Source: a virus. Taken from it: 42,590 nt of DNA. The notes below the pieces were generated by a model. That model was not told the DNA's origin. It searched no databases and worked only from the letters and a program-made list of their open reading frames with translations. Each line of letters begins with the position of its first letter. Position 1 is the stretch's first letter. The stretch lies in IMG/VR virus record IMGVR_UViG_3300047321_000105, positions 1 to 42,590 of that record; one strand, 5' to 3'. Shown one piece after another: positions 1 to 42,590 of the stretch. Both the position numbers and the translations under genes were made by a program.

Positions 1-127
1 GCCTTCGAGTCAGTTTAAGCTGGCGGCAGCGCTTTATGCTGGTCTACCTGACCAACTTCGCTCACTCTATTTCGATGAGAAGGCTGCGGCCCTCTTTGGC
101 TCCTACAGCAAGGACCGCTCGGCTGGC
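1..127. repeat. 127-bp end overlap, left copy (assembly)
   Basis: Bases 1-127 are identical to 42464-42590. The repeat lies inside the gp15-like coding sequence, and 127 is a common assembler k-mer length. I read it as the overlap of a circular contig, not the phage terminal repeat. The non-redundant length is 42,463 bp. Confidence 0.9.
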
Positions 128-9074: not shown

Positions 9075-9125
9075 AGCCCCTCCACGGGGCTTCCATCTTT
9101 TACCCACACGCTTCCACTAGGGGAT
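9075..9125 (+). other. Hairpin plus conserved leader upstream of large terminase
   Basis: AGCCCC/GGGGCT (9075-9091) is a 6-bp stem followed by a pyrimidine-rich tail and then the phage's recurring leader: TTTTACCC at 9098, CTTCCACTAG at 9111-9120. Similar hairpin-plus-leader cassettes occur at 14054, 16892 and partly at 15279 and 37072. The hairpin could terminate or attenuate transcription; its tail is poor in T. Confidence 0.45.
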
Positions 9126-11522: not shown

Positions 11523-11771
11523 GCTCTTATGACTTCCAGTAATGCATCTGATGCTTATCTGCATGTTTGTGCATGTGTGTGAGCACACCTATTTTTTTCC
11601 TGATTCCGCAGGGCTTCAGTACCACGCTAGAACACCTCTAGAACCCATCAGATGCCCTCTAGCTGCCCTGGATGAGTGCCGGACATGCCTACGTATAGGC
11701 CAGCTCAGGGAGCCCGCTAGGCATCCACTAGCTGCGCATCAGTTCTTTTTGAGATTTTTATTGCTGAGGGG
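11523..11771. other. Non-coding stretch upstream of early promoter
   Basis: Contains a short T-rich patch (11590-11597) and several CTAG tetranucleotides (11630-11730). A rightward frame over 11542-11775 has no ribosome site and a composition unlike a protein. I see no gene. Confidence 0.4.
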
Positions 11772-11800
11772 TTGACATGCGCAAGTGGAACTGTTCAAAT
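11772..11800 (+). promoter_or_regulatory. Likely early sigma70 promoter
   Basis: A perfect -35 TTGACA (11772-11777), a 17-bp spacer, then TCAAAT (4 of 6 to TATAAT) at 11795-11800. It is the best host-type promoter in the window and stands just before the first early genes. A GTTAC half-site at 11819-11823, like those upstream of the MarR-like gene, lies shortly downstream. Confidence 0.5.
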
Positions 11801-11848
11801 CCGCTCCATGCAGTAGCCGTTACCGAATGACCAACACAAGGGAACACG

Positions 11849-11899
11849 ATGGGACTGCCCTACAGGAAGCGCACGAAACGGATAATAGCTGGGCTGTAG
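11849..11899 (+). CDS. 16-aa basic peptide (possible leader)
   Basis: AAGGGA lies 8 bases before an ATG opening a 16-codon frame, rich in Arg and Lys (YRKRTKR), ending at TAG. It is the first frame after the early promoter candidate. It may be a leader peptide or chance; no function is assigned. Confidence 0.25.
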   Translation: MGLPYRKRTKRIIAGL

Positions 11900-11941
11900 T
11901 TAGCCCTTTTGTTTGCCCTGAGTAATCCACTAGAGGAACAC

Positions 11942-12175
11942 ATGATGACCCTAACGCAGATAATACGAGCTGGCGCTGACTACGCTGGCGACGCTCACAT
12001 TGAAGTCAACAGCGCCCAGGAATGGGTATCCATCGGTGATGAGGTCTTTTTGCAGGGCGATGAGGCTAGGGCCTTTATTGATGAGGCTGAGCGCCTGTGG
12101 AATGAGGCGGGCGATGTGGGCATTGATGAATGCTGGGCACATCTGGCCGGACCCTATCTTGATAGCCTGGAGTAA
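11942..12175 (+). CDS. Very acidic 77-aa early protein
   Basis: First convincing early gene. The ATG at 11942 (or 11945) follows AGAGGAA. The protein has 17 Asp/Glu against 3 Arg and no Lys, so its net charge is about -14 over 77 residues. No family was recognised. In T7 the first early gene encodes Ocr, an acidic DNA mimic, and here an ArdA DNA mimic lies just downstream. A DNA-mimic or host-inhibitor role is therefore plausible, but this is inference. The recurrent leader motif (TTTGCCCTGAGTAATCCACT, 11911-11930) precedes it. Confidence 0.65.
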   Translation: MMTLTQIIRAGADYAGDAHIEVNSAQEWVSIGDEVFLQGDEARAFIDEAERLWNEAGDVGIDECWAHLAGPYLDSLE

Positions 12176-12178
12176 CTC

Positions 12179-12304
12179 ATGTTCTCACTAGTCCACCGCT
12201 TGACCAACCAGATAATACGGCGCTTCGATTCCCTGGGTGATGCCTTGGGAGCCTTGCAAGATGCCGCAGTGCCTGAGCTGTACTACATCACCAATCAGAT
12301 CTAA
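12179..12304 (+). CDS. 41-aa early protein
   Basis: The ATG at 12179 follows GGAG by 6 bases, 3 bases after the previous stop. The 41-residue protein has a basic N-terminal half with QIIRRF and a neutral to acidic C-terminal half. Its stop is 13 bases before ardA, so it fits the operon. No family was recognised. Confidence 0.45.
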   Translation: MFSLVHRLTNQIIRRFDSLGDALGALQDAAVPELYYITNQI

Positions 12305-12317
12305 GGGGGAATCAATC

Positions 12318-12842
12318 ATGACCAAGCTTTTCGCAAACCCGTATGACATGGCCGCAACTGGGTTCTACTTTGAATCCTTCGATGAGTATGAGCGCCTTAG
12401 CGCGGCTCTCGTGAACTCCTACGGCCAACCCGTGGAAGAATTCATGATTGACTACATCGATGGTCCTGATGCTGAGCTGTTCAAGGCTTGCGGTATCGAC
12501 CAATCCAACCTTGAACTCTGGTTCGATGAGGTGGAAGACCTCAGCGACTCCGAAAAGGCCGCGCTGTTCTACCTGTGCAGCATCCACGGTCAAAGCGTAG
12601 ATGAGGCTCTAGAGATGCGGGGCGGTGGCGTGCGCAATATTGACGATGTGAGCCTGTATCACGGGACACTCGAAAAGGCCGCAGAAGACCTCTTTGATGA
12701 GCTGTACGCCCACGAAATTCCTGAGCACCTGCGCAGCTACATCGACTATGAATCCTTCGCGCGTGATTGCCGCTGCGGTGGTGACATGTACGAATTCGAG
12801 TTTGATGGCGAAACGTGGACATGCACTAGCGCTAACTCTTAA
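12318..12842 (+). CDS. ardA: ArdA antirestriction protein
   Basis: A 174-residue acidic protein whose fold signature is that of ArdA: an N-terminal TGFYFESFDEYERL segment, the middle FMIDYIDGPDAELF region, and the C-terminal LRSYIDYESFARDC block that is the family hallmark. ArdA dimers mimic bent B-form DNA and block type I restriction-modification enzymes, the same job as T7 Ocr but an unrelated protein. The start at 12318 is chosen because GGGGGA lies 7 bases upstream and the family begins there; a longer in-frame extension to 12237 overlaps the previous gene and is not typical. Early placement fits a need to act before host restriction. Confidence 0.9.
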   Translation: MTKLFANPYDMAATGFYFESFDEYERLSAALVNSYGQPVEEFMIDYIDGPDAELFKACGIDQSNLELWFDEVEDLSDSEKAALFYLCSIHGQSVDEALEMRGGGVRNIDDVSLYHGTLEKAAEDLFDELYAHEIPEHLRSYIDYESFARDCRCGGDMYEFEFDGETWTCTSANS

Positions 12843-12846
12843 CTCG

Positions 12847-12875
12847 CCCCTAGCGTTCCACTAGAACATCACATC
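12847..12875 (+). repeat. Recurrent leader element, copy c
   Basis: CCCCTAGCGTTCCACTAGAA followed by CATCACATC. It matches the copy at 14081-14108 over more than 20 bases (TAGCGTTCCACTAG, then R-ACATCACA) and more loosely those at 9098, 16825 and 16931. It lies in the 146-bp gap between ardA and the next gene. Confidence 0.6.
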
Positions 12876-12988
12876 AGCGCGCCTGGAGTCCACCCGCACC
12901 CAGGCCGCTAGATAAACCGGATGAATGCCCTTAGTTGGCCGTCTGGTTTCTCTAGCGAGCTTTGCTAGTCACCTTCTGGAGGTCCCAT

Positions 12989-13339
12989 ATGAACGCCGAA
13001 GTAGTCACGAAGCATTACCTGATAGCTGCCCTTTGGTCATCCACCGATGAGCATGGCGAGCCCCTTGATGCGGTCTATTCGCTTGATGACATCGCACCTG
13101 AAGCCTACGCCCAGGCCTTGGAAGACTGCACTGATTTTATTGCGTCGTGCGGTGAGTCCCTGGCGGCTCTCAACCCTGAGCAAGTGGGCCATGACTTCTG
13201 GCTCACTCGCAATCATCACGGCGCTGGCTTCTGGGATAGGGGCCTAGGCGCGCTGGGTGACTACCTCACAACGATGGCCCATGCGTATGGTGAGTGTGAT
13301 GCCTATGTGGGCGATGACGGTTTTATCTACCTGAGCTGA
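12989..13339 (+). CDS. Conserved phage/plasmid hypothetical with HDFWLTRNHHGAGFWDRG
   Basis: A 116-residue acidic protein. TGGAGGT stands 6 bases before the ATG at 12989. The block HDFWLTRNHHGAGFWDRGLG and the C-terminal DAYVGDDGFIYLS are, from memory, a recurrent signature of small proteins in phages and conjugative elements of unknown function. Its place beside ardA suggests host takeover or defence evasion, but this is only context. Ser/Thr, Asp and Glu are abundant and basic residues few. Confidence 0.7.
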   Translation: MNAEVVTKHYLIAALWSSTDEHGEPLDAVYSLDDIAPEAYAQALEDCTDFIASCGESLAALNPEQVGHDFWLTRNHHGAGFWDRGLGALGDYLTTMAHAYGECDAYVGDDGFIYLS

Positions 13340-13349
13340 GGGTTAAGCC

Positions 13350-13541
13350 ATGCCACTCACCAAGAACGTAAAGAACGCAGGCGAGCTGTGGTACGCAGTC
13401 GTCAACGCCGCTACGGGCTATCTCGTGGCCACATTCGACCTGGCCACCGATGCTGAACGCTTTGTAAAGACCTGTCTCAACCCTGAGCGTTATGAGGTGG
13501 TGCCTACATCCTCACTGCGGTTTGGGGGTAGCGATGACTGA
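13350..13541 (+). CDS. 63-aa early hypothetical
   Basis: The ATG at 13350 lies 10 bases after the previous stop with GAGGG nearby. It shows a beta-rich pattern (ELWYAVVNAATGYLVATF) followed by a helix (DLATDAERFVKTCL), like small alpha/beta early proteins. It overlaps the next gene by 8 bases. No family was recognised. Confidence 0.55.
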   Translation: MPLTKNVKNAGELWYAVVNAATGYLVATFDLATDAERFVKTCLNPERYEVVPTSSLRFGGSDD

Positions 13542-13689
13542 GCGCCTCTACCACCTGGCGGCCATCAACGAACGCCAGGGCCGCAAGGTGTATTTGACAG
13601 ACCATCCCTTGGTCCATCACCTGTGTGTCGTGCTGAAAAGCAAGTTCGTTCCTCACAGGGATGTTCGCATCCAACTGGAGCCCGCCTAA
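13534..13689 (+). CDS. 51-aa early hypothetical
   Basis: The ATG at 13534 is inside the end of the previous gene, preceded by GGGGGTA. The 51-residue protein contains a short beta-hairpin-like core (RKVYLTDHPLVHHLCVVLKS). The stop overlaps the next start (TAATG). Tight packing supports it. Unknown function. Confidence 0.5.
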   Translation: MTERLYHLAAINERQGRKVYLTDHPLVHHLCVVLKSKFVPHRDVRIQLEPA

Positions 13690-13883
13690 TGCGCCCCGCA
13701 GCTCTTCACCTGGTGGAACGTGCGCGAGCCTACGTGGCAGCTCACAAGCCCACTAGCGTCCTCATCCATGCCTTAGCTGATGCCGTAGCGCGTGAGCTGG
13801 CGTGTGCGCTAGGTGGCCCCGTGACAATCTCGCTACCTGGCCGTGTGGTCATCACCCGCAACCCTGGAGACAAACCCCAATGA
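13689..13883 (+). CDS. 64-aa early hypothetical
   Basis: Starts on the last base of the upstream stop (TAATG). It has an Ala-rich amphipathic helix over the first 45 residues, then a short beta part with TISLPGRVVITR. Four-base overlap (ATGA) with the next gene. No family was recognised. Confidence 0.5.
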   Translation: MRPAALHLVERARAYVAAHKPTSVLIHALADAVARELACALGGPVTISLPGRVVITRNPGDKPQ

Positions 13884-14002
13884 GCGACCTCCTGATTCTC
13901 TTTGCTGCCTGCCTGGTGGTCATCGCCCTGGCGTGCTGCCTAGGTGTCATCCTGGGCCGCGTGATTGATGCCGTGATGTGCTGCGTGAGGGATAAACGAT
14001 GA
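13880..14002 (+). CDS. 40-aa single-pass membrane protein
   Basis: Overlaps the previous stop by ATGA. One long hydrophobic helix (LLILFAACLVVIALACCLGV) near the N-terminus, then a Cys-containing basic tail, VMCCVRDKR. A small early membrane protein. The function is unknown. Confidence 0.5.
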   Translation: MSDLLILFAACLVVIALACCLGVILGRVIDAVMCCVRDKR

Positions 14003-14053
14003 TACCCATAGGCCACCGCATCGAATCGCACATGAAGCCCCTAGTCCCCATAT

Positions 14054-14108
14054 AAGCCCCTTAGCGGGCTTCCGTTTGTTTACCCTTAGCGTTCCACTAG
14101 GACATCAC
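14054..14108 (+). terminator. Hairpin and recurrent leader, copy d
   Basis: AAGCCC/GGGCTT (14054-14071) with a 6-base loop, then a broken T-rich tail CCGTTTGTTT, then TACCCTTAGCGTTCCACTAG (14081-14100) and GACATCAC. The hairpin resembles a weak intrinsic terminator. The leader is the clearest copy of the repeated element. Confidence 0.55.
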
Positions 14109-14154
14109 AACCAAGGGCGCTAGGGGCCTGTAAATCAGTCCTGGAGGTATTTCC

Positions 14155-14373
14155 ATGCCTTACTTGATTGAAGCCCAGGCAACACGGGGTTATGTGTGCA
14201 AAGTGAAGTTCAGGGTCAAGCGTGATGCCTTCGCAGTGGCCCAGATGTGCGCCTGTCTGTTGCATTTTTCAGACACTGAGCGGGAGCTGCTGAAAGAATC
14301 CCGCTTAGGCCCAGCGATGCCGGAATTAACGGTAAAGGCTCCGTCTGGAACGGTGACAGTAAGGCGCGTGTAG
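14155..14373 (+). CDS. 72-aa basic hypothetical
   Basis: CTGGAGGT stands 7 bases before the ATG at 14155. The protein is basic (VCKVKFRVKRDAF near the N-terminus), with a helix in the middle and a beta-like C-terminus, PSGTVTVRRV. It is the last gene before the 330-bp control region and is preceded by a hairpin-leader cassette, so it may be its own transcription unit. No family was recognised. Confidence 0.55.
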   Translation: MPYLIEAQATRGYVCKVKFRVKRDAFAVAQMCACLLHFSDTERELLKESRLGPAMPELTVKAPSGTVTVRRV

Positions 14374-14703
14374 GATAGCCCAGCGGTGCCCTGATGGTCT
14401 CTTAGTGAGGCTCTCAGGGCCAGTTCTTTAGGCCACCTTGGATACCGGTCCAGGATGGCCCAGCGAGCTGAAACGGGGATAGTTCATAAGAATCAACGGG
14501 ATGCATCTTTAGTAGGATGAATTCCACTTGTGCAACATATTCCGATTGAGCAGTCAATACTATGTAAGTGTTACCTATCATAGTCTTAATCAATTTGGAA
14601 CCCTGTGCAGGCATACAGTAATGTGCTCGCTCCCCGTTACAACTCGTAACAGTTTGCCGTATCTGATGTCCCTAACAATACCTTCCACTGGGGGAACTGT
14701 TGT
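14374..14703. promoter_or_regulatory. Intergenic control region upstream of the MarR-like operon
   Basis: About 330 bp that is more AT-rich than its surroundings and holds no convincing gene on either strand. It contains two short inverted repeats with the same half-sites, GTAA-GTG-TTAC at 14564-14574 and GTTAC-AACTC-GTAAC at 14636-14650. They are good operator candidates for the downstream MarR-like protein. No strong -35/-10 pair was found. Confidence 0.45.
14636..14650. promoter_or_regulatory. Operator-like palindrome GTTAC-N5-GTAAC
   Basis: A perfect 5-bp inverted repeat with a 5-base spacer, in the size range bound by MarR-type dimers. A related element with a 3-base spacer is at 14564-14574. 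Assignment to the MarR-like gene is from proximity only. Confidence 0.4.
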
Positions 14704-14865
14704 ATGCTGCTTTCTTTTGCTGGATTCGCTGCCCATATCGGTCATGACTACATAGACCGGAATGGGCGCAAGCTCAAGCTGTTCGAGTTTCGACGGGAAG
14801 AAACTGGAGGCTTTGAGGTTTTGATTCTGCGGCGCTGGCTTCTTTCGCTGGGCCGCAGCACTTAA
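14704..14865 (+). CDS. 53-aa basic protein upstream of the regulator (putative)
   Basis: GGGGGAA stands 8 bases before an ATG opening a 53-codon frame that ends 19 bases before the MarR-like gene. The product is basic, with GHDYIDRNGRKLKLFEFRRE then a Trp/Leu/Arg-rich end. It lies beside a regulator and an integrase, so a role as excisionase or transcription co-regulator is possible, but no family motif is seen. A competing minus-strand frame across the same bases has poorer features. Confidence 0.45.
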   Translation: MLLSFAGFAAHIGHDYIDRNGRKLKLFEFRREETGGFEVLILRRWLLSLGRST

Positions 14866-14884
14866 TAAAACAAAGGGGTAGGAA

Positions 14885-15271
14885 ATGAGCATCACCGCAC
14901 TTCACGTAGCAGCAGAAGTCTTGCAATTGTTTCGCCAGCTCAGCACTGACAAACTGGAAAAGCAGGACGTTCCGCCTAACCTGGTAGTGGTGTTTGCGGC
15001 AGTGGCAGCTAATCCGGGACGTTCCCTTAAGGAACTCCAGGATGCAACGGGACTAGGCCAGGCGGTGATGTCCAGGACATGTGCGATGCTTGGTAGAGGG
15101 AAGCCAGCAGCGGGCATCAATGGGCTGGGCCTAGTGAGCACCGAGGAAGACCCAGAGAACTACAGCAGAAAAATCGTGAATCTAACTCCAGAGGGGGAGA
15201 AGCTCCTGGAGCAGATTGACGAGCAGCTAGGCCGGTTTGTTAGGTCAAGGCCTGGTAAGGCCCAGCAGTAA
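14885..15271 (+). CDS. MarR-like winged-helix regulator
   Basis: A 128-residue protein with a MarR-type layout: an N-terminal helix (about 5-20), a winged helix-turn-helix from about residue 35 to 105 (SLKELQDATGLGQAVMSRTC as the recognition region, a wing around ENYSRKIVNLT), then TPEGEKLLEQIDEQLGRFV, the usual C-terminal dimer helix. The strong ribosome site AAAGGGGTAGGAA precedes the ATG. T7 has no such gene. Placed between a palindrome-bearing control region and the integrase, it is the best candidate for a lysogeny repressor or switch protein. That role is inference, and MarR members can also activate. A terminator follows immediately. Confidence 0.75.
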   Translation: MSITALHVAAEVLQLFRQLSTDKLEKQDVPPNLVVVFAAVAANPGRSLKELQDATGLGQAVMSRTCAMLGRGKPAAGINGLGLVSTEEDPENYSRKIVNLTPEGEKLLEQIDEQLGRFVRSRPGKAQQ

Positions 15272-15278
15272 CCCTTCA

Positions 15279-15306
15279 GGCCACCTTCGGGTGGTCTGTT
15301 TCGTTT
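15279..15306 (+). terminator. Intrinsic terminator between regulator and integrase
   Basis: GGCCACC-TTCG-GGTGGTC (7-bp stem with one G-T pair, stable UUCG loop), then TGTTTCGTTT. It separates the MarR-like gene from the integrase. The tail leads into the TTTACCC leader motif used before other genes. Confidence 0.7.
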
Positions 15307-15322
15307 ACCCTTTGGAGGCCGC

Positions 15323-16597
15323 ATGGCGTCACTCTACAAGCGCCCAGACAGTGATGTGTGGTGGATGGATTACCGGGACCCTTCCGGCAAGCGCCACCGG
15401 GAAACCACCCGCACCACTATTAAGAAGGAAGCTGAGCTGGTTATGGCCCAGGTCATGGCTGGCGTTAAGGCCCAGCGTAAGGCTGGCGCTAAGGTTGGCT
15501 ACGGGCCGACTCTCAAGGAAGCCTATAAGGAAGCCATGAGGGAGTACAAGCCGTGGCGGGATTCAACTGACCAGAAGACCATCAACGCCAACCGCAAGGC
15601 CATTGAGGGCCACTTCGGGGAAGACACCCGGCTGTCAGCTATCAGCCGTGAGGCCATCATCGGGTTCGTCAAAGCCCAGCGCGAAGCGGGCAGAGCGGGC
15701 AGCACGATTAACCAGCGGCTCTCCCAGCTCTCCGTTCTGTTCGATGAGGCCACCGACCACTGGGGCTATGGTGAGCTGGTCAAGCCCCGCATGGTCCGTG
15801 AGAAGGTGGCTGAGGGACGCAAGCGTAGATTCAGCCTGGAGGAAGAGAGCCAGGCGCTGGAGCTGCTGGAGCAGGACCGCAGCGATTACGCCCATGACAT
15901 CGCAGACCTCTTCAGGGTCCTGTTTGATACCGGCTGCCGCATCACTGAGGTCCTGACCATCACGGCCAAGACTTACGACCTGGACAAGCAGCTCATCATT
16001 CTGTGGCATACCAAGAACAAGCAGCCCAGAGGTGTCCCGATGACCCCGCGAGTTCACGCTATCCTCACCGCTCGGTCTCACCTTGAGATGCCGTTCGGGA
16101 CCCTCACGTACAACATCGCATACAAGGCTTGGGCTCGTGTGAGGGATGAGATGGGGTTCTCAGCGGGCGAAGAGTTCGTGCCTCATGTGGTGCGCCATAC
16201 GGCTGGCTCCAGGCTCGCTGATGCTGGCGTGAGTGGTCCGCTCATTCAGCAAATGCTCGGCCACAAGTCCATCCAAACGACCCAAAAGTACATCCACGTT
16301 TCAGCGGCTGGGCTCCGTGGAGTGGCTGATATTCTGGCTGCTACAAGCTCCGTTGGCAGTGCCCAGGACCGTGACCAAAAACGTGACCAAAAGGTGGCCA
16401 CAGAGATGGTTGATGCTGATGTGGTGGTCTACCAAGGTGTTGATTCAAAAGGGAATCTAGCGGAATCGGTTGGCAAACGCGGGACTCATAATCCGCCTCC
16501 GAAAGGACATCGTGGGTTCGAATCCCACCCGGCCCACCAAAATAACCAAAAGAATCAGCCAGTTAGCGACTCTTCAGATACCGAAGACAATCACTAG
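15323..16597 (+). CDS. int: Tyrosine recombinase (integrase)
   Basis: A 424-residue phage integrase. The N-terminus has the arm-binding AP2-like beta pattern (SLYKRPDSDVWWMDYRDPSG), then a SAM-like core-binding domain (about 75-170). The catalytic domain has R206 (DTGCRITEV), H288 and R291 (HVVRH), H314 (LGHKS) and the nucleophile Y323 (QKYIHVS). All catalytic residues are present. The ATG follows GGAGGCC. The last roughly 38 codons run through a tRNA-like sequence (attP), so residues from about 387 (GTHNPPPKGHRGFESHPAHQ) are translated tRNA and would change on integration. It should integrate and excise the phage DNA. A few T7-like phages, such as the cyanophage P-SSP7, are known to carry integrases. 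Confidence 0.95.
   Translation: MASLYKRPDSDVWWMDYRDPSGKRHRETTRTTIKKEAELVMAQVMAGVKAQRKAGAKVGYGPTLKEAYKEAMREYKPWRDSTDQKTINANRKAIEGHFGEDTRLSAISREAIIGFVKAQREAGRAGSTINQRLSQLSVLFDEATDHWGYGELVKPRMVREKVAEGRKRRFSLEEESQALELLEQDRSDYAHDIADLFRVLFDTGCRITEVLTITAKTYDLDKQLIILWHTKNKQPRGVPMTPRVHAILTARSHLEMPFGTLTYNIAYKAWARVRDEMGFSAGEEFVPHVVRHTAGSRLADAGVSGPLIQQMLGHKSIQTTQKYIHVSAAGLRGVADILAATSSVGSAQDRDQKRDQKVATEMVDADVVVYQGVDSKGNLAESVGKRGTHNPPPKGHRGFESHPAHQNNQKNQPVSDSSDTEDNH
16370..16392. repeat. Left arm-type repeat pair CGTGACCAAAA
   Basis: Two perfect direct copies of CGTGACCAAAA at 16370-16380 and 16382-16392, a 12-bp period, about 90 bp left of the attP core and inside the integrase gene. Short direct repeats flanking a core are typical of integrase arm sites. 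Confidence 0.6.
16481..16539 (+). other. attP: attP core: 3' part of a class II tRNA (probably tRNA-Leu)
   Basis: The segment reads as an anticodon loop CTCATAA, a long variable arm (CTCCGAAAGGA), a perfect T arm (GTGGG-TTCGAAT-CCCAC), an acceptor 3' strand CCGGCCC, discriminator A and CCA. The bases to the left (16459-16480) resemble a leucine-type D arm (GCGGAA to AACGC), but the 5' acceptor strand does not pair and the anticodon stem is imperfect. This is therefore not a working tRNA. It is a copy of the 3' end of a host tRNA gene, as used by many tyrosine recombinases. The long variable arm plus A73 points to leucine. The exact crossover cannot be set without the host sequence. Confidence 0.85.
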
Positions 16598-16605
16598 AAC
16601 ATCAC

Positions 16606-16628
16606 CGTGGCCTTAAACGTGGCCAAAT
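16606..16628. repeat. Right arm-type repeat pair CGTGGCC
   Basis: CGTGGCCTTAAA and CGTGGCCAAATG at 16606 and 16618, again a 12-bp period, about 70 bp right of the attP core. The unit differs from the left pair by one base in its core (GTGGCC for GTGACC). Confidence 0.5.
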
Positions 16629-16640
16629 GAACACCAAAAG

Positions 16641-16672
16641 AGCCCCGGCTGGGAAACCAGTGCGGGGCTTTT
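16641..16672 (+). terminator. Intrinsic terminator downstream of int/attP
   Basis: GCCCCG and CGGGGC close a hairpin with an inner CTGG/CCAG stem and a GAAA loop, followed by TTTT. In the free phage it ends integrase transcription. In the prophage it would lie between the rebuilt host tRNA gene and the phage RNA polymerase gene. Confidence 0.8.
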
Positions 16673-16695
16673 CGTTTGTCCAAAAGCCTTCCACT

Positions 16696-16740
16696 CGTGA
16701 CATACCGTGACCACCCGCCTGGACACGGCTGTGACCAAAA
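16696..16740. repeat. Further arm-type repeats right of attP
   Basis: CGTGACA at 16696, CGTGACC at 16706 and TGTGACCAAAA at 16730-16740, related to the 16370-16392 pair. They extend the right arm to about 200 bp from the attP core, a normal arm length for phage integrases. Confidence 0.45.
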
Positions 16741-16747
16741 ACCACCG

Positions 16748-16770
16748 ATAAAAACCCACTCTCGCGGTGG
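16748..16770 (+). promoter_or_regulatory. Phage RNA polymerase promoter P2, upstream of the polymerase gene
   Basis: ATAAAAACCCACTCTCGC with G16764 as predicted +1; it continues GGTGGAGA instead of TCTAC. It is about 200 bp upstream of the polymerase start with a hairpin between, so the polymerase can transcribe its own gene. Confidence 0.75.
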
Positions 16771-16801
16771 AGATGAAATCTCCCTTATAGATACATCTAA
16801 T

Positions 16802-16856
16802 GATTACCCTTAAGTCTAACTAAAGTGTTCCACTAGGGAATGCGTTCCGATATACT
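16802..16856 (+). promoter_or_regulatory. Leader element copy e with a weak host-type promoter
   Basis: GATTACCCTTAAG (16802) and GTGTTCCACTAGGGA (16825-16839) form a copy of the recurrent leader. TATACT at 16851-16856 is a good -10 (5 of 6), but the hexamer 17 bases upstream (TTCCAC) is a poor -35. If functional with an activator, it could supply host transcription to the polymerase gene. Confidence 0.3.
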
Positions 16857-16891
16857 CACGTCTGCTGAATAGCTGACTACCACAGCACCCA

Positions 16892-16927
16892 GCCCTCTCT
16901 GCGTCCTCCCGATGCGGAGGGGCTTTT
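16892..16927 (+). terminator. Hairpin with T-run before the RNA polymerase gene
   Basis: AGCCCTCTCTGC pairs with GCGGAGGGGCT with one bulge and two wobbles, followed by TTTTT. The leader copy f (TGCCCTCAGTCTTCCACTAC, 16931-16950) follows, then AGGAACACATC and the ATG. It may attenuate transcription into the polymerase gene. Confidence 0.6.
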
Positions 16928-16961
16928 TATTGCCCTCAGTCTTCCACTACAGGAACACATC

Positions 16962-19385
16962 ATGACCACCACAGACAACCTCCACGCTCTCCAGATTGAA
17001 CTCGAAGAGGAAGCCATCGGCCTTGGCATGAAGCGCTACAACGAGCAGATGGCCAACGGTGAAGACACCCTGCCGCCTGGCCTGAAGCTCATGAAGGCTG
17101 CCATCGAGCCCACCGCAGCAGCCATTGAGCAGTTCATTGAAGAGGGCCTTAAGGGGGCCGCAGCGCGGTCTGTTGGCATCATCAAGTTCCTGGACCAGTT
17201 CGAAGACCGCAAGCTGGTGGCGTTCATCACAGCCAAGATTGTGTTCAACCACATGGGCAAGATGTCCGTGCTGGGGGCTGTGGCCAATGACGTGGCCAAC
17301 CGGCTGGAGGACTGCCTGAACTTCGATGCGCTGAAGGCCGCTGAGCCCAAGCTTTATAAGCAACTGCTGAAGAAGATTGAACACAGCCGCGATGAGCGCC
17401 ACCGCCACATCGTGCTGCGGGTCCAGCAGAAGTTCGCCAAGGTGGCCACCATCACCTGGGGCAAGGCTGAAAAGATTCGCCTGGGCACCACGCTGATTCA
17501 CCTCTTCGCTGACGCTACGGGCCTGGTGGAGATTAAGGAGTACGTGCGTGGGCCGAACGACACCCCTCACATCGTTGCGCCCACTGAAGCCACCGCTAAG
17601 TGGCTCGCTGATGGCCATGCTCGGTGCGCCCTGATGAGCCCCATGTGTATGCCTATGGTGGTCAAGCCGCTTCCCTGGACTGGCCCGTTCGGTGGTGGCT
17701 ACCTGACCAAGCCGATGCGCTTCCCGCTCATCAAGACGGCCAACCGGAACTACCTGGAGGACCTGAAGCAGGTTGATATGCCGATGGTCTACGCCAGCGT
17801 GAACGCTCTCCAGGAAACCCCGTGGGCCATCAATAAGGCTGTCTTCCACGTCATGCGCGAGGTGTGGGATGGGGGTGGCCGCATGGGCAAGCTCCCCAGC
17901 CGTGAGCCGCAAGAACTCCCGCCCAAGCACTTCGACCTGGAGAACCCGGATGCTGAAGAGCTGAAGGCATGGAAGAAGCAGGCCGCTGGTGTCTATGAGA
18001 GCAACATCCGGAACGCCTCCAAGCGGGCTGGGATGTCATCCAAGCTGTGGATGGCTGAGAAGTTCGAAGACATCGAGCGGTTCTACTACGTCCACAATCT
18101 GGACTGGCGGGGCCGTGCGTACCCTGTGGCCACCTTCCTGAACCCGCAAGGCTCAGACTCCGATAAGGCGCTCCTTCAGTTTGCCGATGGCTACCCGCTG
18201 GGCGAGAACGGTGCGCGCTGGCTGGCCATCCACGGGGCCAACACCTTCGGCATTGACAAGGTGACCTTCGAAGAGCGCATTAGCTGGGTGGAAGACCACC
18301 AGGAGCAGATTCTGGAGGCTGCCATGAACCCGCTGGATGGTTCCCGCTGGTGGGCTGAGGCCGATAGCCCGTACATGTTCCTGGCGTTCTGCTATGAGTG
18401 GCTGGCGCTCTCAATGCACACCGACCTGGGCAAGCCGCAGGAAGAGTTCATGAGCTACCTGCCGTGTTCGTGGGATGGCGCTTGCAATGGCCTTCAGAAC
18501 TTCTCAGCGCTGCTGAAGGATGCCGTGGGTGGCGCTGCTGTTGGTCTGGTCCCCAGTGACAAGCCTTCGGACATCTATACAGAGGTCTGCAATGCAGCCA
18601 ATGTGCTGATGGCTCAGGAAGCCCTGGAAGGCCACGAGCTGGCCATGAAGTGGCAAGGCAAGATGACCCGTAAGCTGTCCAAGCAGAACACCATGACGAC
18701 CCCTTACGGGGCCACCAAGCGGGGCATGTGCCAGCAGATTGAGTCTGTCTTCCAGAAGATGAAGGCTGAGGGCGCTGACATCACCGTGGACCTGAAGGAT
18801 TGCCAGTATCTGGCTGATACCAATTACCAGGCCATCGGTAAGGTGGTGGTGGCCGCTCACGCAGCTATGGACTGGCTCAGGGATGCCGCTAAGGTGGCCG
18901 CTTCAGACTCGCTGCCCATCCGCTGGGTTACTCCGAGTGGTCTGCTGGTGTTGCAGGACTACCGCCAGATGGTTGGTCAGCGGCTGGACTTCGACGTGGC
19001 AGGTAAGCGTGTCCGCATGATGCTGAAGGATGAAGGTGACAAGCTGGATGGTCGCAAGCAATCAGCGGGCATCTCTCCGAACTTTATCCATTCCTTGGAT
19101 GCAGCCCACATGATGCGCACGGTGAACTACTGCCTGGAGCGTGGCGTGACCTCCTTCGCAATGATCCATGACAGCTACGGCGCACATGCAGGGCTCGCTG
19201 AGACTCTGCGGTTCTGCCTGAAGCGGGCCTTCGTGGACCAGTACAGCGGTGATGTGCTGGGTGACTTCAGGAACCAGCTCGGTGAGCAACTGACACCTGA
19301 ACTGGCTGCTGAGCTGCCCCCGCTGCCCACCAGCGGCGCCCTGGATTTGGAAGGTGTGATGCACTCGGACTATTTCTTTGCCTGA
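16962..19385 (+). CDS. T7-type single-subunit RNA polymerase
   Basis: An 807-residue DNA-directed RNA polymerase (T7 gp1 is 883 aa). Recognised blocks: DWRGRAYPVATFLNPQGSD, equivalent to the T7 DWRGRVYAV region; D505 in DGACNGLQNFSALLKD; K574 and Y582 in SKQNTMTTPYGA, with the same 8-residue spacing as T7 K631/Y639; and D737 in IHDSYG. All catalytic residues are present, so it should be active. It transcribes middle and late genes from the five promoters listed here. The ATG follows AGGAACACATC. Unlike T7, an integrase and attP lie directly upstream and one phage promoter precedes the gene. Confidence 0.98.
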   Translation: MTTTDNLHALQIELEEEAIGLGMKRYNEQMANGEDTLPPGLKLMKAAIEPTAAAIEQFIEEGLKGAAARSVGIIKFLDQFEDRKLVAFITAKIVFNHMGKMSVLGAVANDVANRLEDCLNFDALKAAEPKLYKQLLKKIEHSRDERHRHIVLRVQQKFAKVATITWGKAEKIRLGTTLIHLFADATGLVEIKEYVRGPNDTPHIVAPTEATAKWLADGHARCALMSPMCMPMVVKPLPWTGPFGGGYLTKPMRFPLIKTANRNYLEDLKQVDMPMVYASVNALQETPWAINKAVFHVMREVWDGGGRMGKLPSREPQELPPKHFDLENPDAEELKAWKKQAAGVYESNIRNASKRAGMSSKLWMAEKFEDIERFYYVHNLDWRGRAYPVATFLNPQGSDSDKALLQFADGYPLGENGARWLAIHGANTFGIDKVTFEERISWVEDHQEQILEAAMNPLDGSRWWAEADSPYMFLAFCYEWLALSMHTDLGKPQEEFMSYLPCSWDGACNGLQNFSALLKDAVGGAAVGLVPSDKPSDIYTEVCNAANVLMAQEALEGHELAMKWQGKMTRKLSKQNTMTTPYGATKRGMCQQIESVFQKMKAEGADITVDLKDCQYLADTNYQAIGKVVVAAHAAMDWLRDAAKVAASDSLPIRWVTPSGLLVLQDYRQMVGQRLDFDVAGKRVRMMLKDEGDKLDGRKQSAGISPNFIHSLDAAHMMRTVNYCLERGVTSFAMIHDSYGAHAGLAETLRFCLKRAFVDQYSGDVLGDFRNQLGEQLTPELAAELPPLPTSGALDLEGVMHSDYFFA

Positions 19386-41072: not shown

Positions 41073-42590
41073 ATGCCACCTAATAACCCGCAGTCCATCA
41101 CAGCACGACCGGCAGGAGGCCCTGGCCAACGTCAGGTTCTCTTCCAACCCCAGGAGCGGGTGGTGGACACCTACGCAGCGCCCAGCCAGGACACAGCACT
41201 TAACGGGTTCATTGAGGGTCTCAAGAGCTTCAACCCAGCGCTGAATCAGTACGTCAACCTTCAGAACCAGAAGGATGCCACTGCGGCATTCAAGGAGGGC
41301 ACCGCTCAGGGACAACTGGCTGACGCTGGTCTAACTGACGCACAGACTGGTGGGATCAAGGTTCCGCCACCTCCTGACAACCTGAAGATTGACCCAGCGT
41401 TTAGCGATACGTTTGCCGCTGGTTACCGCAACTCGGTGGGCGCGAAGATTGGCAATCAGGTCCAGACGGACATCCTGAGCGCCTATGCGCAGCATAAGAA
41501 CACCGATGGCTTCGACCCTGAGCAGTTCCTGCATGAGCAGGTAGCGAGCCACACGGCAGGCATCACGGACCCGGCTATCGTAGATCAAGTGTCCAAGAGC
41601 GTGGCCACTACGGCTGACCATGTTCGCCAGGACTACGCTCAGGTCCAGCTCCAGCGCCTGAAGGAGACCGCAGTAGGGAATCTCTCTGCTGTGGCTGATG
41701 GCGTGCTGGACCCCAGCAAGCCGCTCTCCCAGATGTGGGATGGTGTCCAGAAGGTCCTGGAACCGATGCGTGGTCAGATGGGCATGATGACCCGCCCTGA
41801 GATGGCTGACATGCTACTGGACAAGATCAACAACTTGTCTACCCAGGCGGGAGGCCGTCCCGAACTCTTCGACCTCTTCAGCCAATTCAAAGACCCCACC
41901 ACGGGCCTGACGTTGCAGCAGATGAACCCGAAGATTCAGACGGAGGCCACACGCCTCCAGCATCGGGCTACCGAAGAGCAGAACCAGCGCATTGAGCAGG
42001 GGCAGCAGACGGACTTCTTCAAGAAGACTGTTGCCGATGAGGATGCAGCTAGTAACGGGAAGGAGCCTGACATCCAGGACTTCGTGAACCGCATTGGTCC
42101 GCTGAATCAGTTCAAGACTGCCAGCGCTGCCTTGGGCGAGTACCGGCGCTTGCAGGGCATCGCTGACAAGGCTCAAGGGGATGCGCAGGCGGTCCAGGCG
42201 GTTGGCAATGGTACGGCATGGGCGCTCGATAAGAAGACCGCTCAGGGGGCTCTGGACACGGCACAGCAGCCTGACGTGAACACCCTCATGCAGGTAGCCA
42301 GCAGCGCATCGGCAGGGGACCCTTCACAGCTCCCTCAGGTGCAGCAGGCCATCAAGTCCATCACGGACATCACGGGGCGCTCTGGCCGCAGTGACCTCGC
42401 TAACACCAACCTCAAGGCTCTCATTGATGGAACCGTAAATGCAGTCCCTCCGAAAGATGGTCAGCCTTCGAGTCAGTTTAAGCTGGCGGCAGCGCTTTAT
42501 GCTGGTCTACCTGACCAACTTCGCTCACTCTATTTCGATGAGAAGGCTGCGGCCCTCTTTGGCTCCTACAGCAAGGACCGCTCGGCTGGC
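41073..42590 (+). CDS. Internal virion protein, gp15-like, N-terminal part
   Basis: GAGGATAGG stands just before the ATG at 41073. The frame runs to the right edge and continues in frame at base 1 (42465 corresponds to base 2). About 506 residues are in this part; the complete protein has 977. The start PPNNPQSITARPAGGPGQRQ is a disordered leader. The rest is helical, Gln/Ala/Lys-rich, without membrane segments. The lysozyme-like domain is on the other part (1-1543). Confidence 0.9.
   Translation, partial: MPPNNPQSITARPAGGPGQRQVLFQPQERVVDTYAAPSQDTALNGFIEGLKSFNPALNQYVNLQNQKDATAAFKEGTAQGQLADAGLTDAQTGGIKVPPPPDNLKIDPAFSDTFAAGYRNSVGAKIGNQVQTDILSAYAQHKNTDGFDPEQFLHEQVASHTAGITDPAIVDQVSKSVATTADHVRQDYAQVQLQRLKETAVGNLSAVADGVLDPSKPLSQMWDGVQKVLEPMRGQMGMMTRPEMADMLLDKINNLSTQAGGRPELFDLFSQFKDPTTGLTLQQMNPKIQTEATRLQHRATEEQNQRIEQGQQTDFFKKTVADEDAASNGKEPDIQDFVNRIGPLNQFKTASAALGEYRRLQGIADKAQGDAQAVQAVGNGTAWALDKKTAQGALDTAQQPDVNTLMQVASSASAGDPSQLPQVQQAIKSITDITGRSGRSDLANTNLKALIDGTVNAVPPKDGQPSSQFKLAAALYAGLPDQLRSLYFDEKAAALFGSYSKDRSAG
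42464..42590. repeat. 127-bp end overlap, right copy (assembly)
   Basis: Identical to bases 1-127; see the left copy. It marks the join of the circular contig. Confidence 0.9.

Follow-up and report, generated by a model that had tools for sequence, protein, structure and literature searches.

Gene order and a predicted promoter element at the integrase–RNA polymerase junction of a temperate T7-like phage of Burkholderiaceae

We analyzed the 42,590-bp IMG/VR virus record IMGVR_UViG_3300047321_000105 (the whole stretch is called the window), whose phage is a temperate T7-like phage (Autographiviridae, integrase-bearing group) of Burkholderiaceae. A MarR-like regulator gene, an integrase gene carrying a tRNA-derived phage attachment site (attP) and the gene of a T7-like RNA polymerase (RNAP) follow one another in this phage. 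A preliminary description of the region had proposed that integration, by separating RNAP from the early promoter, is enough to shut down the lytic cascade, with no need for a dedicated repressor of RNAP. The layout it described was right and is confirmed in a real prophage of a relative. Position alone is an unlikely switch, however, because a promoter-like site moves with RNAP and a repressor-type gene is present; geometry and terminators probably act as insulation and repression as the switch. The reading that we favor, and consider fairly probable, is integration into a tRNA gene with MarR-type repression of both the RNAP and the early promoters, geometry and terminators insulating. Among the points in its favor, an element after attP keeps the same place before RNAP in 13/13 loci, despite differing integrase and attP modules. 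Promoter, terminator and operator calls are computational predictions throughout.

A conserved promoter-like element before the RNAP gene

The features at the 5'-end of RNAP are as follows.

16826..16856, plus strand: host-type promoter-like element of the RNAP gene (TGTTCCACT box, spacer, TATACT -10), in 13/13 loci and 0 of 200 shuffles
16894..16931, plus strand: terminator-like hairpin, a possible attenuator, between the local promoter and RNAP; 12-pair stem (16894-16922) and T run, conserved
16940..16957, plus strand: second box, TCTTCCACTACAGGAACA, at the RNAP ribosome-binding site, differing at 3 positions from an 18-bp palindrome; relatives have a similar sequence here
16962..19385, plus strand: T7-like single-subunit RNAP (phrog_414, E 8e-246 over residues 6-807 of 807; PF00940, E 8e-113)

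The polymerase gene previously placed at 16962 was thus upheld by its phrog_414 match. When the gap before RNAP was aligned among the loci, little aligned outside the last ~140 bp, and the integrase modules and attP differed. Conserved in the gap were, in order, TGTTCC(A/T)CT, TATAGT or TATACT, the terminator-like hairpin, the second box and the start codon. Each of the 13 loci, which represent about 7 lineages and so are not all independent, has the pattern GTTCC(A/T)CT-N12-20-TATANT exactly once, immediately ahead of RNAP, and 200 shuffles of the window gave no occurrence; the pattern was defined from the same sequences, and the shuffle count therefore shows specificity and not independent discovery. 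The same element lies between tRNA-Lys and RNAP in the Paraburkholderia susongensis LMG 29540 prophage (locus L021, 9861-9890). It is the best-conserved noncoding part of the gap and includes the TATACT at 16851 that had been described as weak. Its -10 is near consensus (TATAGT/TATACT), with an extended TGn in the L006-L010/L016 group of relatives.

Silencing by position would require that RNAP have no promoter of its own on the attL side. This did not hold, since a promoter-like element of predicted activity is conserved there in 13/13 loci. A host promoter between 16540 and 16962 that is active in the lysogen had been named as an observation that would speak against silencing by position; a conserved element does lie in that interval and stays with RNAP in the prophage, and its promoter activity is predicted.

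The early promoter, the regulator and a shared half-site

Two further features bear on repression.

11772..11800, plus strand: early host-type promoter TTGACA-N17-TCAAAT with half-site AGTGGAAC (11784-11791) in the spacer, conserved in 11 loci
14885..15271, plus strand: MarR-like regulator, 128 aa (phrog_9665, E 1e-18), 72-90% identical in relatives and 39% in phage LUZ100

The early promoter candidate at 11772 stood up to comparison: TTGACA and the spacer GTGGA were found in 11/11 loci covering this part of the genome, of which 10 are relatives, and the longer GTGGAAC in 9. A simple promoter scan made no call at the window early promoter because of its poor -10; the relatives mostly have a better one (TACAGT/TAAAGT). 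In 11/11 loci, the GTGGA(AC) of the spacer is the reverse complement of the half-site in the RNAP promoter-like element. A half-site common to both promoters is naturally read as the putative site of one trans-acting regulator for both, and the phrog_9665 protein is the conserved candidate for that role.

The regulator gene, too, was assigned correctly from the start. In a Foldseek comparison with the PDB, its AlphaFold model (predicted local distance difference test, pLDDT, 69) resembles structures of the MarR family (best E 8e-6, template-modelling score about 0.5); the sequence itself scores below the Pfam cut-off for MarR_2. The phrog_9665 regulator adjoins the integrase in the window, LUZ100, P-SSP7, HTVC019P and the distant contig G385, so that the window has the MarR-like regulator beside the integrase that marks the MarR cassette of the LUZ100/Boeckman model. 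With a conserved MarR-fold regulator in the integrase cassette and a half-site shared by the early and RNAP promoters, the suggestion that no dedicated repressor is needed was not sustained.

Strongly conserved upstream of the regulator (window 14560-14640; L006-L016 and L034) are two palindromes, CTATGTA-N10-TACATAG and TGTTACAAGTTTTAACA, and a conserved 53-aa open reading frame (ORF; 14704-14865) lies just before the gene. The sequence TTCCACTA..GGAA recurs on the sense strand in gene leaders of the window, at 9112, 11923, 12856, 14092 and 16942. A LUZ100 counterpart, ACTATCCACTAGCGCATAGG, is found at 11568 and 22149, in gene leaders that include those of middle and late genes.

Integration at tRNA genes and prophage order

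The integration module consists of the following.

15323..16597, plus strand: tyrosine integrase, ORF running through attP (phrog_1, E 9e-54; Pfam PF00589, E 2e-22)
16482..16539, plus strand: attP core, the 3' 58 bp of tRNA-Met(CAT), by a 97-98% match to host tRNA-Met genes

The profile matches identify the integrase as the tyrosine recombinase that had been proposed. The attP segment is 95-98% identical to the tRNA-Met(CAT) 3' end in nine Burkholderiaceae genomes, far beyond chance, and one of these, P. susongensis, has an intact tRNA-Met(CAT) gene. ARAGORN found no tRNA in the window because only the 3' part is present. The tRNA-like segment is therefore real, but it belongs to the 3' end of the integrase ORF instead of following that ORF as first described; the integrase C-terminus would consequently change upon integration. 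The tRNA at attP differs by lineage (tRNA-Met in the window, tRNA-Lys in L021/L034, tRNA-Leu in L006). By this comparison, integrase-attP modules have been swapped at one fixed place between regulator and RNAP, both of which stay conserved.

An RNAP query of 84,980 species genomes recovered one close relative, in P. susongensis (RNAP 88% identical), and no integrated copy of the window phage itself. At one end of the P. susongensis prophage a complete tRNA-Lys(TTT) is followed by the conserved terminator and RNAP. At the other end are the early promoter and early region, the MarR-like regulator (90% identical), the integrase and a 50-bp stretch that copies the tRNA-Lys 3' end exactly. The integrase end is ~41 kb from the RNAP end, and RNAP is ~36 kb from the early promoter, which remains intact. 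This T7-like prophage of strain LMG 29540 (L021/L034) resembles the window phage in RNAP, regulator, terminator, promoter element, order and predicted integration, and differs in its integrase, only 46-47% identical, and in its target, tRNA-Lys(TTT). The predicted prophage order, with RNAP beside the tRNA behind a terminator and the early promoter at the far end, was thus seen in P. susongensis at both att ends. After integration, RNAP and the early promoter would lie about 37 kb apart in the window phage, and not 40.

A separate IMG/VR provirus record (L003), which may come from the same strain as the P. susongensis prophage, carries RNAP and the regulator at opposite ends. The distant T7-like contig (G385 C5, 40.3 kb) also fits: tRNA-Leu, a terminator and RNAP come first in it, and a phrog_9665 regulator and integrase come last. 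It is likely integrated, to judge from this order, with a second att copy beyond the contig end. Only ~165 bp separate its tRNA from RNAP, with no clear promoter there. The order regulator, integrase, RNAP recurs in L006-L017 (RNAP 70-78% identical). In L011, L013, L014, L015 and L017 an HNH-endonuclease-like ORF, read by eye, interrupts the interval from the end of the integrase to the RNAP promoter.

Some other matches were set aside. The RNAP matches L025-L036 (28-36%, other Burkholderiaceae) had no tRNA just upstream, apart from a doubtful one on the opposite strand in L030. A distant regulator match (G770) was dropped for its chromosomal gene neighbors and the lack of a T7-like RNAP in the stretches read. 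A class-wide phrog_414 search gave one further, partial match (G946), with no tRNA nearby.

Terminators and silencing by position

Three more terminator-like features were called.

16641..16682, plus strand: terminator following the tRNA in the prophage, called in the window by eye and conservation; conserved beside tRNA-Lys in L021 (9681-9720)
15277..15305, plus strand: terminator-like hairpin in the regulator-integrase interval, with counterparts at that position in L006 and L034
11891..11912, plus strand: intrinsic-terminator-like hairpin in the early leader

The terminator already recognized at 16641 has a conserved counterpart in the corresponding position of the P. susongensis prophage. 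The hairpin at 16894, which had been missed, is the stronger intrinsic terminator, lies between the 16851 TATACT and the RNAP start, and shows some compensatory changes in relatives. On both strands of the window we counted 15 terminator-like hairpins against 4.6 expected; several precede early genes on the coding strand, a pattern that suggests attenuation or antitermination in the early region. Predicted hairpins at 11891, 14054, 15277, 16641 and 16894 already part RNAP from the early promoter in the free phage, so that read-through from 11772 is no obvious source of RNAP.

It is improbable, in our estimate, that integration alone switches the lytic cascade off. The prophage order is exactly what this explanation predicts, the terminator between tRNA and RNAP is conserved, and the short tRNA-RNAP interval of G385 would suit it. 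However, the conserved promoter-like element between attP and RNAP, the hairpins that interrupt the free phage and the presence of the regulator all argue against it. The prophage also retains an intact early promoter, whose silencing must come from something other than geometry. The T7-like cyanophages P-SSP7 and S-TIP37, in which attP follows int, integrate without stable lysogens (PMC8776855), though P-SSP7 also has a phrog_9665 regulator. In the lysogenic Autographiviridae phage vB_PaeM-G11, integrase is ORF 1 and RNAP is ORF 8 on one strand (PMC10142737), apparently at the same prophage end. A literature search, whose coverage did not extend to Boeckman et al. 2022, found no published statement of the geometry idea.

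Comparison with known phages

Pseudomonas phage LUZ100 (OP329100) shares the arrangement of the window: host promoters come first, then a phrog_9665 MarR-like regulator, a tyrosine integrase, a terminator, a phage promoter and finally a T7-like RNAP. A related box, CTATCCAC, lies in the spacers of the experimentally mapped LUZ100 host promoters P1 and P2 and twice between int and RNAP. LUZ100 differs in that its RNAP DNA is similar over short stretches only (~67%) and its tRNA-Leu is upstream of int. P-SSP7 (Prochlorococcus) and HTVC019P (Pelagibacter), both distant in sequence, keep the order phrog_9665 regulator, integrase, RNAP; attP is downstream of int in P-SSP7 (PMC8776855), and RNAP comes next. 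Rhizobium phage Pasto (MT708545) has a helix-turn-helix regulator, integrase, tRNA-Leu and RNAP, but several genes lie between its int and RNAP; it is reported to lysogenize, as cited in PMC10134795. An ATCCACT motif sought across phyla showed no clear enrichment over shuffles in P-SSP7, Pasto or HTVC019P.

MarR repression of RNAP is itself a published proposal for the LUZ100-type group (PMC10134795). Control of the kind proposed for LUZ100 from long-read transcripts (PMC10134795) would dispense with a functional host promoter upstream of RNAP. In the circular phage, transcripts running from the regulator-integrase operon through the terminator would start RNAP expression, and a phage promoter (P2) would amplify it; integration would cut this read-through, and MarR would in addition repress P2. 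The window has a matching order of parts and a P2 candidate.

16749..16776, plus strand: phage-RNAP promoter-like repeat P2, with diverged equivalents in the int-RNAP gap of several relatives

The phage promoter earlier placed at 16748 is indeed one of 5 copies of this sequence (10918, 16749, 19428, 19689 and 32698). Such control would nevertheless require passage through the 16641 and 16894 terminators, and it leaves the best-conserved noncoding element, TGTTCCACT-N-TATAGT in 13/13 loci, unexplained; we therefore regard it as unlikely.

The phage genome and the record

Window positions 1-127 and 42464-42590 are an exact repeat, which is probably a circular assembly overlap of k-mer length and not the physical terminal repeat of the phage; the window is therefore in effect a circular map of 42,463 bp. 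Profile matches identified a T7-like gene set in T7-like order: gp2.5-like, amidase, primase/helicase, DNA polymerase, exonuclease, connector, scaffold, capsid, tail, internal virion and terminase. Together with the T7-type RNAP gene and an adjoining integrase with tRNA-derived attP, these are the marks of the integrase-bearing group. Integration in a host genome with both att sites is seen through the P. susongensis relative.

A model for lysogeny

In the favored reading, the tyrosine integrase would insert the phage at attP, inside the int 3' end, into the 3' end of a tRNA gene, here tRNA-Met. One prophage end would then carry tRNA, terminator, phage promoter, local promoter and RNAP, and the opposite end the early promoter, regulator and integrase. 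RNAP would be kept off in the lysogen mainly by repression in trans, the phrog_9665 regulator still being transcribed with int and presumably binding the half-sites (TGTTCCACT / AGTGGAACA) of the RNAP promoter (16826-16856) and of the early promoter. Geometry and the terminators at 16641 and 16894 would insulate RNAP against read-through from the tRNA and the early operon. Once repression lapsed, host polymerase could start RNAP from its own promoter, and RNAP would then amplify itself from P2.

Several points weigh against MarR-type repression at these promoters. MarR-family proteins can activate as well as repress. The RNAP promoter has a poor -35 and its box to -10 distance varies (17, 18 or 21 nt), and the promoter may therefore be weak or need activation. 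The palindromes upstream of the regulator may be its true operator. Transcript mapping in LUZ100 found no host promoter directly before RNAP (PMC10134795). The TTCCACTA boxes lie near ribosome-binding sites, always on the sense strand, and the LUZ100 box is found before middle and late genes too; some of the motif may thus act in RNA, and the leader box is possibly an RNA or translation element. The LUZ100 distribution likewise weakens the idea of the box as an operator confined to early regions.

Carried further, these box positions and the conserved hairpin would make the whole conserved element (box, terminator hairpin, box at the ribosome-binding site) a leader that controls transcripts arriving from upstream. 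This we think has little probability, as the element ends in a near-consensus -10, extended in the L006-L010/L016 group, and the half-site also lies within the early promoters. Repression and position could, alternatively, work together as a double lock, a tentative idea that we rate as possible but doubtful. Integration would uncouple RNAP from upstream transcription, with terminators flanking P2, and a MarR-type repressor encoded at the far end would silence the early and RNAP promoters. If true, excision and derepression would both be required for full lytic expression. In some lineages, such as that of G385, geometry may do most of the work.

Published proposals on how a phage with a self-amplifying polymerase stays silent as a prophage rest on LUZ100 and a few others. 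The loci described here supply testable parts, namely a predicted RNAP promoter that stays with its gene, a half-site that recurs in the early promoter, and a fixed place for swapped integrase and tRNA modules, and they show why position alone is a doubtful explanation of prophage silence.

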